From Gelidibacter mesophilus DSM 14095 (GTDB lineage Bacteria; Bacteroidota; Bacteroidia; Flavobacteriales; Flavobacteriaceae): 64,000 nucleotides of DNA. Positions 29,929-60,215 of the stretch are shown here, one piece after another. The notes beneath the pieces are model-generated. The model was given only the letters and a program-made list of their open reading frames with translations, was not told where the DNA came from and did not search any database. Made by a program: the position numbers and the translations under genes. Location: assembly GCF_000423005.1 (NCBI RefSeq), contig NZ_AUHD01000006.1:248001-312000 (forward strand), in the 5' to 3' direction. Positions within the stretch are counted from its first letter, which is position 1, and the number at the start of each line of letters is the position of its first letter.

Positions 29929-29985
29929 ATACTCTTAATTGTCTTAAGGTTACGGAAGATTTGACGTTTCGCGTCGAAGGTAGTT

Positions 29986-30082
29986 TCCACTGCCTTTAGC
30001 ATTTTTATTCCACAATGTTGTAGAACTCATCCTCGGAATTTCCGATTCTGAAGAGGTTGCAATCAGTCAAATCTGTCCTCTC
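29986..30082 (-). ncRNA. SAM-II-like riboswitch (long-insert variant) in the metK leader
   Basis: Read on the minus strand: P1 arms GAGAGG (30077-30082) and CCUCUU; between them GAUUUG, ACUG and UUGCA in the order conserved in SAM-II. After about 45 nt comes UAAAAAUGCUAAAG, matching the UAAA...GCUAAAG block, then GCAGU, whose CAGU can pair with the loop ACUG to form the pseudoknot. Classical SAM-II has only a few nucleotides where this one has the 45-nt insertion with a small UCGG...CCGA hairpin. A metK leader is the expected context. Not tested against a covariance model. Confidence 0.75.
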
Positions 30083-30095
30083 AATTATTATCTGA

Positions 30096-30125: not shown

Positions 30126-30334
30126 TCGTTTTAATTTTTTTTCATTTGAAATTAACGTTTGAAAATATTTTACATTTATTTTTTCACTCCATAAAGCCTT
30201 TGTTTATATGGGACAAACACCTGGTAGTTACGTAGGATATTTAGGTTATTTTAAATAAAAATCGTTAATAATTTGGAATTGTAAGATTTGTGTTGCAATA
30301 TTTGTGTTCACAAAGTTCAAAAACTTATTGAAGT

Positions 30335-30454
30335 GTTATCAAGAAAGGCAGAGGGATTAGACCCGGTGAAGCCTTAGCAACCCTTTATTCATAAAGAAGG
30401 TGCTAAATTCTACTTAATTGCTGATTCATTTATCAGGTAATTGGATAGATAACT
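30335..30454 (+). ncRNA. SAM-I (S-box) riboswitch upstream of metY
   Basis: P1 arms GTTATC and GATAAC close the element. Inside are AAAGGCAGAGGGATTAGACCC, GGTGAAGCCTTAGCAACC, and AAGAAGGTGCTAAATTCTAC, the conserved S-box core; P3 is CTTTAT/ATAAAG. Binds SAM and should turn off metY when SAM is plentiful. The following hairpin and T-rich run at about 30461-30493 may be the terminator of the expression platform. Confidence 0.95.
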
Positions 30455-30573
30455 AAACGTAATTACTCATCTGTAATTATTATTTTCTTTTTAGCATTTT
30501 TCTATTAGGTTCGTCAGTGATGACGCAATTGGCTTTTGTTTTAATTCATTTATTAACTCAAAAAATTAGAAAA

Positions 30574-47304: not shown

Positions 47305-47363
47305 AAGTTGGTAAACTATTTTTTATCCCTTAAATTCGCCCTTAGTTCATACTATTAATATTT

Positions 47364-47500
47364 GTTATCACGAAAGGCAGAGGGATTAGACCCGTTGAAG
47401 CCTTAGCAACCCTTAAAATTTCTGCCACGGCAGAAATCTTGGTAAGAAGGTGCTAAATTCTACTTTATGCTGAATTGATTTCAGGATTTAGACAGATAAC
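47364..47500 (+). ncRNA. SAM-I (S-box) riboswitch upstream of metH
   Basis: P1 arms GTTATC and GATAAC, with AAAGGCAGAGGGATTAGACCC, TTGAAGCCTTAGCAACC and AAGAAGGTGCTAAATTCTAC, almost identical to the copy at 30335. Its P3 arm is enlarged by a perfect palindrome, ATTTCTGCC AC GGCAGAAAT (47418-47437), absent from the metY copy. It should repress metH when SAM is high. Confidence 0.95.
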
Positions 47501-47551
47501 CAGAGTGTTTTTTCTCTCACTTTCCTGATGACATTTTTATTTTCTTAAACA

Positions 47552-55917: not shown

Positions 55918-55948
55918 TTTTGTTTATCCAATTTATTATTTACTTTAG
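55918..55948 (+). promoter_or_regulatory. Promoter of the pheA operon leader
   Basis: TTTTG (55918-55922), 18 nt, then TACTTTAG (55941-55948), close to the -33/-7 pattern. Transcription would begin near 55954, just before the leader ORF. Confidence 0.6.
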
Positions 55949-55960
55949 CTAAATCATATT

Positions 55961-56038
55961 ATGAAAACAATCAATTACACATATCACAGCTTGTTTTATT
56001 TCTTTTTTAGCAAAGGGAACGAGACTTCGTATGTGTAA
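55961..56038 (+). CDS. Phenylalanine/tyrosine leader peptide (attenuator)
   Basis: 25 codons reading MKTINYTYHSLF then YFFFSKGNETSYV. Codons 12-16 are Phe-Tyr-Phe-Phe-Phe (55994-56008); in all there are four Phe and four Tyr codons, a strong bias for a peptide this short. It lies between a good promoter and an intrinsic terminator upstream of prephenate dehydratase. No Shine-Dalgarno is evident, as is usual here. Codons 20-23 overlap the proposed antiterminator segment. The peptide itself probably has no function. Confidence 0.8.
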   Translation: MKTINYTYHSLFYFFFSKGNETSYV

Positions 56039-56090
56039 TTTATTCGCTATAAATTAATATAAAGGTCTCGATGAAAATCGGGACTTTTTT
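56020..56090 (+). promoter_or_regulatory. Transcription attenuator of the pheA operon
   Basis: Segment CGAGACTT (56020-56027, inside the leader ORF) can pair with AAGGTCTCG (56062-56070). The same right-hand segment is the 5' arm of a 12-bp terminator hairpin (56061-56072 with 56077-56088, GAAA loop, T run to 56090). A ribosome stalled on the Phe codons leaves 56020-56027 free, allowing the antiterminator; one reaching the stop at 56036-56038 covers it, so the terminator forms. Confidence 0.78.
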
Positions 56091-56133
56091 GTTTTAATGA
56101 TGTCCGTTTTGACGGATAATTTAAAAAATATAC

Positions 56134-56964
56134 ATGATAAAGTCTGTTGCCATACAAGGAGTTAAAGGGTCGTTTCATCATATTGTTGCCCTTGAGTATT
56201 TTAAAGACCCTTTAGAAACAATTGATGAGTGCATGACGTTTGATGCCGTGGTGCAGAGCGTTTTGACCCGTAAAACGGATGCCGTGATCATGGCCATAGA
56301 AAATTCGATTGCCGGTTCCATCATTCCTAATTATGCCTTAATTGACGATAACCAATTACACATTATTGGGGAGCATTATTTGGATATTCAGCATCATTTA
56401 ATGGGATTGGCAGGACAGTCCATTGCTGATATTCATGAAGTTTATTCGCATCCCATGGCGTTGTTACAGTGCAAGCAATTTTTTAAAAAACACCCACATA
56501 TTAAGTTGGTGGAAGATAAAGATACCGCTGAGGTCGCAAGACGCATTCAGCAAAAACAATTAAAGAATGTGGGTGCGATTGCAAGTCGATTGGCTTCGGA
56601 ATTATTTGAATTGGAAATCATATCAGAAAGTATCCAAACCATCAAGCAAAACGAAACCCGTTTTGTTATTGCAAAAACGAGTAATGGTGTTTTGGATCAA
56701 AGGGAAATCAATAAAGCATCACTAAAATTCACATTAGACCATAAACGCGGAAGTTTGGCGTCTATTTTAAATGTGATGAGTGATTGTAGGATGAACCTTA
56801 CTAAAATTCAATCCTTACCAAAAATTGAAACTCCTTGGAAGTATGCCTTTTTTGTGGATATTACTTTTGAGGATTATCAAGATTATAAAAAAGCAAAATC
56901 AATAATGGAAATAATGGCTCAAGAATTTAAGGTTCTGGGCGAATATAAAAATGCACGACAATGA
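56134..56964 (+). CDS. pheA: Prephenate dehydratase
   Basis: Converts prephenate to phenylpyruvate for phenylalanine. 276 residues. Catalytic PDT domain (1-180) begins VAIQGVKGSFHH and has MAIENSIAGSI and the catalytic NETRFVIA (TRF) motif; the ACT domain (190-276) includes GSLASILNVMSDCRMNLTKIQSLP. The Phe-binding ESRP motif of the ACT domain reads QSLP, so allosteric control may differ from E. coli. First gene after the attenuator; its stop overlaps the aminotransferase start by 4 bp. Confidence 0.95.
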   Translation: MIKSVAIQGVKGSFHHIVALEYFKDPLETIDECMTFDAVVQSVLTRKTDAVIMAIENSIAGSIIPNYALIDDNQLHIIGEHYLDIQHHLMGLAGQSIADIHEVYSHPMALLQCKQFFKKHPHIKLVEDKDTAEVARRIQQKQLKNVGAIASRLASELFELEIISESIQTIKQNETRFVIAKTSNGVLDQREINKASLKFTLDHKRGSLASILNVMSDCRMNLTKIQSLPKIETPWKYAFFVDITFEDYQDYKKAKSIMEIMAQEFKVLGEYKNARQ

Positions 56965-58106
56965 TCACCTTTGCAGATAGATTAAATACTGTTGAAGAGT
57001 ACTACTTCTCAAAAAAGTTGAGGGAAGTGAACTTATTGAAATCCCAAGGAAAACCTATAATCAATTTAGGAATTGGGAGTCCGGATCTGGAGCCGCCTGC
57101 CCGCGTTATATCAGCTATTAACGAAAGCATGAACGATGCCATTGCGCATAAATACCAAAGCTATCAAGGCTTGCCAGAATTGAGGGAAGCCATGACAGGG
57201 TTTTATAAAGAACATTACGGCGTTGCATTGAGTCCGTTGACTGAAGTGTTGCCATTAATGGGAAGTAAGGAAGGCATCATGCATATTTCTATGGCATTTT
57301 TAAATCCGGGAGATGAAGTGTTAATCCCAAACCCCGGCTATCCAACGTATGCTTCGGTAACGAAATTAGTGGGTGCACGGCCTGTTTATTATGACTTGGT
57401 CGCTGAGAATGATTGGTGCCCGGATATGCTAGCTTTAGAAAAGAGTGATTTGTCAAAAGTAAAAATGATGTGGGTGAGCTATCCGCACATGCCAACGGGA
57501 GCAACCGCCAGTAATAAAGTTTTTGAAGACATCATTGCTTTTGCAAAACGGCATAGTATTTTAGTGATCAATGATAATCCATATAGTTTTGTGTTGAATG
57601 ATTATCCACGAAGTATCTTGAAATATAAAGGCGCCAAAGATGTGTGTTTGGAACTTAACTCTTTAAGTAAAACCTTTAATATGGCAGGATGGCGTGTGGG
57701 GATGGTCTTGGGGAATCTAGAATATATCAATGCTATTTTAAAAGTAAAAAGTAATATGGACTCTGGCATGTTTTACGGCATTCAAAAGGGTGCGATTGAA
57801 GCTTTAAAGTGTTCAAAAATGTGGTTTACAAGTTTAAACAGTGTTTATGAAGAACGTCGTGAGAATGTCTGGGAGTTGGCAACAGCCTTAAACTGTACCT
57901 ATGATCCATGCGCAACAGGATTGTTTGTTTGGGCAAAACTACCAGGGCATTTGACCTCCGAGGAATTTATTGATAAGATATTGAAGGAACACTCCATCTT
58001 TATCGCCCCAGGTACCATATTTGGGAGCAATGGCGAAGGGTATATTCGATTTTCGTTATGTGCACCACTAGAAGAACTGCGTGAGGCCATATCCAGAGTG
58101 AAATAG
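56961..58106 (+). CDS. Aromatic-pathway PLP aminotransferase (class I/II)
   Basis: 381 residues. Fold-type I aminotransferase with NLGIGSPDLEPP, YQSYQGLPELREAM, NPGYPTY, NDNPYSF, and the PLP lysine in ELNSLSKTFNMAGWRVGM. Between pheA (4-bp overlap) and tyrA, so it probably makes Phe and Tyr from phenylpyruvate and hydroxyphenylpyruvate. By sequence alone it could be an aspartate or diaminopimelate-type enzyme. Confidence 0.9.
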   Translation: MITFADRLNTVEEYYFSKKLREVNLLKSQGKPIINLGIGSPDLEPPARVISAINESMNDAIAHKYQSYQGLPELREAMTGFYKEHYGVALSPLTEVLPLMGSKEGIMHISMAFLNPGDEVLIPNPGYPTYASVTKLVGARPVYYDLVAENDWCPDMLALEKSDLSKVKMMWVSYPHMPTGATASNKVFEDIIAFAKRHSILVINDNPYSFVLNDYPRSILKYKGAKDVCLELNSLSKTFNMAGWRVGMVLGNLEYINAILKVKSNMDSGMFYGIQKGAIEALKCSKMWFTSLNSVYEERRENVWELATALNCTYDPCATGLFVWAKLPGHLTSEEFIDKILKEHSIFIAPGTIFGSNGEGYIRFSLCAPLEELREAISRVK

Positions 58107-58180: not shown

Positions 58181-59032
58181 ATGAAAAATATATACATCAT
58201 AGGTGTTGGATTAATAGGAGGCAGCTTGGCTCTCGATATTAAAAAACACGACCAAAAGGTAAAGGTTTTCGGAATTGATCATAATAATGCGCATTTGGAA
58301 GAGGCGATCCAATTGAATGTGATTGACGCCAAAGCAAATTATGAGGATTTAAAGCATGCAGATCTGGTTATTTTATCCATCCCTGTTGATGCGGCGGTAA
58401 CTGAAATTATTAAAGTTTTGGATTTGGTTTCAGATGATACTTTGGTGATGGATGTAGGATCCACAAAAGCTGAAATTTGTCAAGCTATAGATCAGCATCC
58501 AAAGCGCCGGAACTTCTTGGCTACCCATCCGATTGCGGGAACTGAGTTTTCTGGACCCAAAGCGGCCATTTTTGGATTGTATCAAAATAAGACCAATATC
58601 ATTTGTGAAGTTGAAAAAACGGCGTTCAAGCTTCAGGAAATGGCGCTCAAATTGTTTGCGGATTTAGGGATGCGTATCCGCTATATGAATCCGGAAGCTC
58701 ACGACAAACACATTGCTTACGTATCGCATTTATCCCACATTAGTGCATTTATGTTGGGTAAAACCGTCATCGACAAAGAAAAAAACGAGCGTGATATTTT
58801 TGATATGGCAGGAAGTGGATTCGCATCGACGGTACGATTGGCAAAAAGTTCACCAGAAATGTGGACGCCAATCTTTAGACAAAATAAAACCAACGTTCTC
58901 GAAACCTTGGATGAATATATAAACAATCTTAAACATTTCAGGGATTTGATTCATGATGATGATTTTGAGTCTATTTATTCAGAAATGAAAAACACCAATC
59001 ATATAAAAGAAATTTTAAACGGAATACAATAG
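58181..59032 (+). CDS. tyrA: Prephenate dehydrogenase
   Basis: Oxidatively decarboxylates prephenate to hydroxyphenylpyruvate for tyrosine. 283 residues. NAD motif IIGVGLIGGSLALDI, VILSIPVDAA, DVGSTKAEI, the catalytic HPIAGTEFSGPKAA and a helical C-terminal dimer domain with HLSHISAFMLGKTV. No fused chorismate mutase or ACT domain; chorismate mutase is in the next gene. Confidence 0.95.
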   Translation: MKNIYIIGVGLIGGSLALDIKKHDQKVKVFGIDHNNAHLEEAIQLNVIDAKANYEDLKHADLVILSIPVDAAVTEIIKVLDLVSDDTLVMDVGSTKAEICQAIDQHPKRRNFLATHPIAGTEFSGPKAAIFGLYQNKTNIICEVEKTAFKLQEMALKLFADLGMRIRYMNPEAHDKHIAYVSHLSHISAFMLGKTVIDKEKNERDIFDMAGSGFASTVRLAKSSPEMWTPIFRQNKTNVLETLDEYINNLKHFRDLIHDDDFESIYSEMKNTNHIKEILNGIQ

Positions 59033-59132: not shown

Positions 59133-60215
59133 ATGGAAAACAAGAGAGAATTAAGAACATGGTTAGATGATTTAAAATTGGATCATCCTTTGGTCATTGC
59201 AGGCCCATGCAGCGCAGAAACAGAAGAACAAGTCTTGGGTATTGCCCATCAATTAAAAGATACCGATGTGAGCTATTATAGAGCGGGTATTTGGAAACCA
59301 CGTACACGTCCAGGAATGTTTGAAGGCGTGGGTGCTTTGGGATTAAAATGGTTACAGAGAGTTAAAGAAGAAACCGGTATGAAAACCGCAACAGAGGTGG
59401 CTAATAGAGCACACGTTGAACTGGCATTGGAGCATGATATTGATTTGCTTTGGATTGGTGCACGTTCTACCGTAAGCCCGTTTATCGTTCAGGAAATTGC
59501 TGATGCCTTAAAAGGAACAGATAAAATCGTGTTGGTTAAAAATCCAGTTAATCCAGATTTACCATTGTGGTTAGGCGCAATTGAACGTTTGGCCACTGCC
59601 GATATCAAGAGATTAGGAGCCATCCACAGAGGGTTTTCAACCTATGAAAAAACCAAATACAGAAACAATCCAGAATGGCAGTTGGCTATTGAATTGCAAA
59701 CTAAATTTCCTGATTTGCCATTAATTAATGATCCATCACATATTACAGGAAAACGCGATATGATTTTTGATGTGTCACAAACAGCCTTAGATTTAAATTT
59801 TGACGGACTTATGATTGAGACCCATAGTGATCCAGATGCGGCATGGAGTGATGCTGCACAACAGGTGACACCTCAAAATTTAATTCAAATCATGAAAGAT
59901 TTACGGATTAGAAAAGAATCTGATCCTGAGAAAGAATACAATACTGATTTGAGTAATTTAAGAGCACAAATTGATGTTGTGGACAATCAACTTATTGAAA
60001 TGTTGGGCAAGCGCATGAAGTTTTCTGACGGAATTGGAGCCCTTAAAAAGCAAAAAAACGTGGCGGTATTGCAAAGTAAACGTTGGAATGAAATTTTAGG
60101 AAATATGGTCTTAGAAGGTGAACAAAATGGACTGAGCGAGGAATTTATCCTTAAAATGTTTAAAGCCATTCATCAGGAATCCATTAACCATCAAGAAAAA
60201 ATTATCAATGCTTAA
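59133..60215 (+). CDS. Bifunctional DAHP synthase / chorismate mutase
   Basis: 360 residues. The N-terminal ~265 are a type I-beta DAHP synthase (IAGPCSAE, RAGIWKPRTRPGMFEGVG, LLWIGARST, NPVNPDLPLW, RGFSTYEKTKYRN, NDPSHITGKRD, MIETHSDPDAAWSDA), the first step of the shikimate pathway. The C-terminal ~85 are an AroQ chorismate mutase (LRAQIDVVDNQLIEMLGKRMKFSDGIGALKKQK). The mutase supplies prephenate to pheA and tyrA and may mediate feedback inhibition of the synthase. Ends the four-gene aromatic operon. Confidence 0.95.
   Translation: MENKRELRTWLDDLKLDHPLVIAGPCSAETEEQVLGIAHQLKDTDVSYYRAGIWKPRTRPGMFEGVGALGLKWLQRVKEETGMKTATEVANRAHVELALEHDIDLLWIGARSTVSPFIVQEIADALKGTDKIVLVKNPVNPDLPLWLGAIERLATADIKRLGAIHRGFSTYEKTKYRNNPEWQLAIELQTKFPDLPLINDPSHITGKRDMIFDVSQTALDLNFDGLMIETHSDPDAAWSDAAQQVTPQNLIQIMKDLRIRKESDPEKEYNTDLSNLRAQIDVVDNQLIEMLGKRMKFSDGIGALKKQKNVAVLQSKRWNEILGNMVLEGEQNGLSEEFILKMFKAIHQESINHQEKIINA

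Follow-up and report, generated by a model that had tools for sequence, protein, structure and literature searches.

A predicted Phe/Tyr leader-peptide attenuator upstream of pheA and its conservation in Flavobacteriaceae

Introduction

In Gelidibacter mesophilus DSM 14095, a short open reading frame (ORF) rich in phenylalanine and tyrosine codons lies directly ahead of pheA, the first gene of an aromatic amino acid operon. Does this leader switch the operon on and off by ribosome-mediated attenuation, as its layout suggests, and how widely is it kept? Such attenuation requires a ribosome that runs close behind RNA polymerase. Here we analyse the locus within a 64,000-nucleotide stretch of the genome (the window) and compare it with the corresponding loci of related bacteria.

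A preliminary description of this DNA knew of no described attenuator of this kind in Flavobacteriaceae. This statement needs correction: a published study already lists, in the main-text parts considered here, a related structured pheA element as well as leader-peptide attenuation (PMC9723704). In Flavobacterium psychrophilum, Guerin et al. (2021) reported structured 5′ elements ahead of pheA and of hisG; the pheA element is conserved in other Flavobacteriaceae genera and has no Rfam match, and the authors found 'strong clues' for leader-peptide attenuation ahead of amino-acid operons (PMC9723704, main-text parts). Their pheA element very probably corresponds to the one described here, in a related genus. 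In the main-text parts considered, that paper shows neither a leader sequence nor its helices, covariation or spacing, and attenuation is not linked by name to the pheA element. The existence of the element and its mechanism in outline are thus already in print; the present analysis adds the anatomy, covariation, spacing and breadth.

Results

A leader ORF and three helices precede pheA

The leader region contains the following features, all on the forward (+) strand:

55920–55948 (+): Bacteroidota-type promoter, with TTG at 55920–55922, an 18-bp spacer and a −7 box, TACTTTAG, at 55941–55948
55961–56038 (+): leader peptide ORF of 25 codons, MKTINYTYHSLFYFFFSKGNETSYV*, read from the sequence and conserved in relatives
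55994–56008 (+): putative regulatory codons 12–16, Phe-Tyr-Phe-Phe-Phe, based on the sequence and the conservation of aromatic codons
55969–56044 (+): 1:2 protector hairpin, predicted to sequester region 2; main stem 55973–55984/56029–56040, segment energy −20.0 kcal/mol
56020–56070 (+): 2:3 antiterminator, with region 2 at 56020–56027 and region 3 at 56063–56070; −16.2 kcal/mol, backed by covariation and spacing
56061–56095 (+): 3:4 intrinsic terminator with U tract; stem-loop 56061–56088, AAAGGTCTCGAT-GAAA-ATCGGGACTTTT, T run from 56085
56101–56118 (+): small hairpin between the terminator and the pheA start, from fold prediction

The preliminary description had pointed to promoter-like elements ahead of the ORF, to the 25-codon ORF with its aromatic run, to a 12-bp terminator hairpin with a GAAA loop and a T run, and to an alternative stem whose left arm lies inside the leader ORF. 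Each of these was found in the sequence where it had been placed, and both the coordinates and the pairings matched. The arms of the alternative stem, CGAGACTT in region 2 and AGGTCTCG in region 3, pair over 8 bp with one G-U. The antiterminator extends beyond these 8 bp: positions 56018–56072 fold as a single extended hairpin, at −16.2 compared with −14.0 kcal/mol for the terminator. Neither this extension nor the 1:2 hairpin, which is formed by the leader ORF and includes region 2, is mentioned in the preliminary description. The leader as a whole (201 nt) folds with a z score of −5.07, and none of 200 shuffles folded as well. The small hairpin nearest to pheA, of 7 bp, is likewise absent from the preliminary description.

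The promoter recurs in relatives. Of 206 leaders, 152 have the pattern TTG-N16..22-TANNTTNG no more than 75 nt from their ATG, compared with 60 of 4,120 mononucleotide shuffles, and in 127 of those 152 leaders the spacing is 18. From the end of the −7 box to the leader ATG, the median distance is 15 nt in these 152 leaders; in the window it is 12 nt. With the −7 box at positions −12 to −5 (PMC9723704, main-text parts), transcription is predicted to start at about position 55953, which would leave a 5′ untranslated region (UTR) of about 8 nt in the window and about 11 nt typically.

Downstream of the leader lie four genes, again on the forward strand:

56134–56964 (+): pheA, prephenate dehydratase; 189.1 bits with the whole profile covered, below the curated cut-off of 219
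56961–58106 (+): class I aminotransferase; best match 413.4 bits, to the LL-diaminopimelate aminotransferase subfamily, below the cut-off of 507
58181–59032 (+): tyrA, prephenate dehydrogenase; 395 bits, above the cut-off of 295
59133–60215 (+): bifunctional DAHP synthase/chorismate mutase; both domains match, below the curated equivalog cut-off

Profile searches agreed with the gene calls made earlier for this operon, with tyrA as the only one of the four genes that passes its curated cut-off. The order of the four genes is the same in 69 of 69 full-length related loci, and the regulatory codons fit the operon products, Phe and Tyr. Among the named genomes, the closest PheA proteins are those of eight Gelidibacter (84–87% identity). 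Elsewhere in the window we observed two SAM-I riboswitches (30333–30455 (+) and 47362–47502 (+)) and a SAM-II match (29985–30086 (−)) that lies just over threshold, at 44.6 bits compared with a gathering score of 44. The SAM-II match sits about 250 nt from the first SAM-I riboswitch on the opposite strand, so that the two SAM classes point apart.

The leader is conserved almost throughout the family

Of the 208 pheA upstream regions compared, nearly all from Flavobacteriaceae, 206 contain a leader ORF rich in aromatic codons with a terminator behind it. A leader was counted when at least four of seven codons were Phe, Tyr or Trp and a terminator-like hairpin with a T run followed; the T run after every hairpin is therefore partly there by construction, because the terminator search demands it. 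The 208 regions comprise 91 distinct loci and 117 family genomes, two sources that overlap in part and were not deduplicated against each other. In the first source, 105 of 110 loci had the leader within 420 nt, and removal of 14 identical rows left 91; the exceptions were three loci with the leader further upstream (L004, L009 and L082) and two clipped at a contig end (L058 and L102). The family sample has 178 genomes with a PheA match; we analysed 147 of them, and 143 had the leader within 420–450 nt. Among the remaining genomes, one leader was displaced, one was clipped and two loci had none: at L207 a long same-strand frame ends 42 nt upstream of pheA, and at L192 there is only a short opposite-strand frame upstream.

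A covariance model of the element (R1) found one copy in the G. mesophilus genome (E = 8.2e-15) and weaker matches in other genomes. No second copy was found in that genome at E 0.01, with 150 of 5,688 first-look candidates scored. With only 8 base pairs, R1 acts mainly as a sequence profile.

Regions 2, 3 and 4 vary together

Across loci the three regions co-vary as GAGAC/GTCTC/GRGAC, GGGAC/GTCCC/GGGAC, AGGAC/GTCCT/AGGAC, GGAAC/GTTCC/GGAAC and GGGAT/ATCCC/GGGAT (205 loci; L160 was left out of this table). Region 2 of each locus scores higher when paired with region 3 of the same locus (mean 14.38) than with those of other genomes (12.50, s.d. 0.12), and the maximum of 1,000 permutations was 12.85. 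This anchored analysis picks region 2 by best match, and the permutation searched in the same way; the offsets searched were 2–26 in the permutation and 2–31 in the real data, a mismatch that is harmless because the best real offsets all lie within 2–15. When the offset was fixed at 10 or 11, the own pairing scored 12.46 compared with 10.82 permuted (maximum 11.19); offset 11 alone gave 8.67 compared with 7.12 (maximum 7.52), and offset 10 alone gave no excess (−3.7 compared with −3.66). The 145 loci with GTCTCG as region 3 scored 14.63 with this sequence and 9.88 with GTCCCG; for the other 60 loci the scores were 13.77 with the native region 3 and 11.15 with GTCTCG.

We also examined a MAFFT alignment of 66 hand-picked leaders, drawn from 80 of 131 diverse ones; the other 14, several of them divergent, were omitted, and four odd loci (L141, L169, L181 and L189) had been excluded before the 131 were chosen. 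The covariation counts from this alignment are of changed pairs rather than of independent changes on a tree. In the terminator, 8 of 11 pairs were changed on both sides, 93.6% of cells were paired and none of 500 shuffles scored as high. The 2:3 helix gave a mixed picture: 66.8% of cells were paired, and sliding by −1 gave more (73.4%); the number of doubly changed pairs showed no excess, being matched or exceeded in 438 of 500 shuffles; two other measures, a covariation score of 0.260 and 26 cells changed on both sides, exceeded all shuffles and all slides. We ascribe the weak 2:3 count to the alignment, in which MAFFT offset region 2 by one column between the two main groups, a shift that the anchored analysis avoids. 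The preliminary description had called for a conserved Phe/Tyr mini-ORF and covarying hairpins in related leaders, and this comparison bears out both, the MAFFT-based 2:3 count being the weak point.

The 2:3 pairs are present in the minimum-free-energy fold of the segment in 201 of 205 loci. The median energies of the antiterminator and the terminator are −12.8 and −13.2 kcal/mol, respectively, and the antiterminator is the more stable in 88 loci. With energies this nearly equal, the switch is balanced. The linker within the antiterminator folds only weakly beyond chance (median z −0.67).

Consistent with a protector role for the 1:2 hairpin, region 2 is paired upstream over at least four of six nucleotides in 155 of 205 loci, a count that has no shuffle control, and the fold of this segment has a median z of −3.0 (102 leaders). 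In the MAFFT alignment 62.6% of the cells of the 1:2 helix are paired, and its covariation score is 0.285, compared with 0.225 shuffled and 0.138–0.198 slid, which is higher than in any of 500 shuffles or any slide. Doubly changed pairs in this helix showed no excess over shuffles (216 of 500 as high).

The distance between the terminator and pheA varies

An intrinsic terminator lies between the leader ORF and the first structural gene in all 206 leader loci. One possible alternative is translational or dual control, in which the 3:4 hairpin would mainly block the pheA start and the antiterminator would open access to it. At 61 of 205 loci, no more than 12 nt separate the terminator arm from the start of the PheA match, which places the U tract near or in the initiation region. 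However, the arm is separated from the pheA ATG by 45 nt in the window, and we rejected purely translational control there for this reason. Across loci this distance takes values between 5 and 245 nt, although the other features are retained, and in two loci of named Gelidibacter (L004 and L009) the leader ends as far as 464 and 571 nt upstream of pheA. We therefore regard this alternative as improbable; translational control would be no more than an additional layer in some species.

At three of the 61 loci (L013, L016 and L022) the U tract directly abuts the ATG, an arrangement that could add translational control. The extra DNA between leader and pheA in L004 and L009 carries a sequence that is repeated (AAGTTCGAAGAACGAAATAAAAT, also GAGTTCGAAGAACGAAATAAAAT) and may be a small mobile repeat.

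Aromatic codons are conserved rather than the peptide

Aligned at the end of the aromatic core, each of the last four core codons encodes Phe or Tyr in no fewer than 205 of the 206 leaders, and the codon before these four does so in 181; the last position is aromatic by definition, because an aromatic residue was used to mark where the core ends. Both Phe and Tyr occur in 206 of 206 leaders, and Trp in 135. In the leader of the window, Leu (TTG) takes the place of a Trp that is present in the eight named Gelidibacter. At codon −3 from the core end, TTC is used in 171 of 182 Phe cases, with TTT dominant at the neighbouring codons (206 leaders); we suspect that TTC breaks up a long U run at this place.

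In TnaC-like systems, the ribosome is stalled by the nascent peptide itself. Such an arrest, here on free Phe or Tyr, would be in keeping with the peptide of near relatives, which is well kept (for example, NWFYFFFSKRNETLYV). Across the family, however, it is mainly the aromatic cluster that is kept, as FYFYFFF, FYFFF or FFFYFF: its order differs, Phe, Tyr and Trp exchange with one another, and the core codons of the 206 leaders show Phe/Tyr exchange as well as synonymous change. Moreover, much of the peptide tail follows from the pairing of region 2 at the RNA level. These patterns make peptide arrest, as opposed to codons that await charged tRNA, very improbable.

Spacing would place a stalled ribosome at the edge of region 2

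Region 2 starts 10–11 nt past the final aromatic codon at 179 of 205 loci (s.d. 1.3 nt), whereas the end of the stop codon lies anywhere from +6 to +36 nt from that codon (s.d. 6.0). A ribosome covers about 15 nt on each side of its P site. With this footprint, a ribosome at the last aromatic codon would extend roughly to the start of region 2; at the stop codon it would cover most or all of region 2. We take the fixed spacing as the strongest indication that the switch is set by a stalled ribosome.

The leader therefore combines an ORF with codons for the operon products, a terminator, an exclusive antiterminator that shares region 3, a 1:2 hairpin and a geometry suited to a translating ribosome. 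The fit to ribosome-mediated attenuation proposed earlier is supported by the helices, covariation, spacing and conservation. The ORF and its codons, the three helices with their covariation and spacing, the conservation and the operon are all established at the level of sequence, and on these grounds the pheA leader is, in all likelihood, a classical ribosome-mediated transcription attenuator.

In such an attenuator, RNA polymerase would start about 8 nt ahead of the 25-codon leader ORF. When charged Phe- or Tyr-tRNA is scarce, which would be the signal, the leading ribosome would stall at codons 12–16 and hold the 1:2 hairpin open. Region 2, which begins about 11 nt past the last Phe codon, would then be available for pairing with region 3. 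Formation of 2:3 would preclude the 3:4 terminator, and the operon from pheA through the aminotransferase and tyrA to DAHP synthase/chorismate mutase would be transcribed. When Phe and Tyr are plentiful, the ribosome would reach the stop codon and cover region 2, so that 3:4 forms and transcription ends. If the leader is left untranslated, the 1:2 hairpin would retain region 2, and transcription would likewise end. Transcription and translation would have to be coupled within the leader, and the operon would be expected to respond to starvation.

A terminator and an antiterminator are by themselves also compatible with protein- or tRNA-sensing antitermination of the T-box or TRAP-like kind, with the ORF incidental. 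No Rfam antitermination family was found at threshold in the window or the leader, and such a model would not explain why region 2 keeps a constant distance from the last aromatic codon. We consider this reading less probable still than peptide arrest. In the Rfam scans PyrR scored 20.5 bits, compared with a gathering score of 54, and a T-box or riboswitch was rejected for lack of an Rfam match in the leader at threshold.

The chance that an ordinary terminator of an upstream unit merely follows an accidental AT-rich ORF is practically negligible: an ATG ORF with at least five consecutive Phe/Tyr codons arose in 24 of 5,000 dinucleotide shuffles of the 216-nt region, so that the codon run alone is 'not vanishing' in AT-rich DNA, but gldA, the upstream neighbour, sits on the opposite strand, and chance is ruled out by the near-universal conservation of the leader across pheA upstream regions, with its covariation and its conserved spacing between codon cluster and region 2.

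Leaders of this kind extend beyond the family and to other operons

A class-wide sample of 159 genomes contained 42 with a PheA match, 38 of them outside Flavobacteriaceae, and 117 without one at E 0.001. Among the 26 pheA loci examined from the 38 outside matches, 15 had an aromatic leader with a terminator, and the region 2–3 pairing score was at least 20 in 11 of those 15. At four of the 11 loci without a leader (L231–L234), a same-strand frame ends 5–82 nt upstream of pheA.

Other amino-acid operons gave graded results. The G. mesophilus hisG (L259, contig C12) is preceded by a six-His leader, MTFIQSHHHHHHICTQAK, with a terminator, and a His-rich leader with a terminator was found at 16 of 16 hisG loci, nine of which are from Gelidibacter or from the G. 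mesophilus genome itself. In nine Gelidibacter-group loci, region 2 of the hisG leader begins 5–6 nt past the last His codon. When four hisG loci were searched with Rfam, L267 alone gave matches, both below threshold (His_leader, 34.4 bits with a gathering score of 49; Trp_leader, 27.8 with a gathering score of 41). A trpE-like gene of G. mesophilus (L279, contig C4) has a three-Trp leader, MYTILNHTWWWNFSKQHS, with a terminator, and Trp-rich leaders with terminators were found at 12 of 15 such loci. These trpE-like genes score below the curated trpE cut-off (432.7 compared with 517.7 bits for the G. mesophilus gene), and the region 2 search in their leaders yielded no convincing 2:3 pairing.

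No comparable leader was found at 10 pheS loci examined (of 20), and no clear one at 14 ilvD loci (of 17). Of 13 thrA-type aspartokinase loci, 9 carry, ahead of the gene, an ORF whose last residues are T(L/P)WG, and no terminator scoring above 15 followed it. These ORFs are perhaps leaders of another kind. Upstream of an aspartokinase-type gene of G. mesophilus itself (L318, contig C13), we observed a 30-codon ORF ending in ...ITLWG.

Discussion

We lean, with some reserve, towards the view that these leaders belong to an old, class-wide set of Bacteroidota attenuators (Phe/Tyr, His and Trp) that start translation without a Shine–Dalgarno sequence some 8–11 nt from the mRNA 5′ end; the pheA member would integrate Phe and Tyr, with Trp in about two-thirds of leaders, and in about one-third of loci its terminator lies almost flush with the pheA start. 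A study by Lopatovskaya et al. from 2010 may cover the phylum. A 2010 survey placed leader-peptide systems in Proteobacteria and Actinobacteria and, in the parts considered, elsewhere listed only its own Firmicutes case and the atypical ermC (PMC2965389). One sentence in the part of PMC7366714 considered here bears on leader peptides in Bacteroidetes.

If attenuation operates as proposed, leading ribosomes must follow RNA polymerase closely in Bacteroidota. The generality of transcription–translation coupling is debated, and Bacillus subtilis appears uncoupled (PMC10953045, in part). Bacteroidota are described as lacking Shine–Dalgarno initiation and as having an unusual promoter (PMC9723704, main-text parts). 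Our literature search found no study of transcription–translation coupling in Bacteroidota, for which these conserved attenuators would be natural reporters. The leaders also suggest an annotation rule for amino-acid operons: a cluster of Phe/Tyr or His codons, followed by region 2 at a short fixed distance. The value of the present results lies in their breadth and in making coupling testable in Bacteroidota; the mechanism itself is textbook, and the surprise is moderate.

The enterobacterial pheA leader, pheL, encodes a Phe-rich peptide and has alternative helices and an intrinsic terminator. The leader described here resembles pheL and the Rfam family Phe_leader (RF01859) in placing a Phe-rich leader, alternative helices and an intrinsic terminator before a prephenate dehydratase gene. 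Unlike pheL, it mixes Phe with Tyr, and often with Trp, and it heads an operon for Phe, Tyr and the common pathway. Membership in RF01859 was rejected, with a score of 23.0 bits (E 0.13) that lies well under the gathering score of 55. The trp and his leader attenuators (RF00513 and RF00514) read different amino acids but follow the same logic, and the G. mesophilus genome has its own Trp3 and His6 leaders beside the Phe/Tyr leader of pheA.
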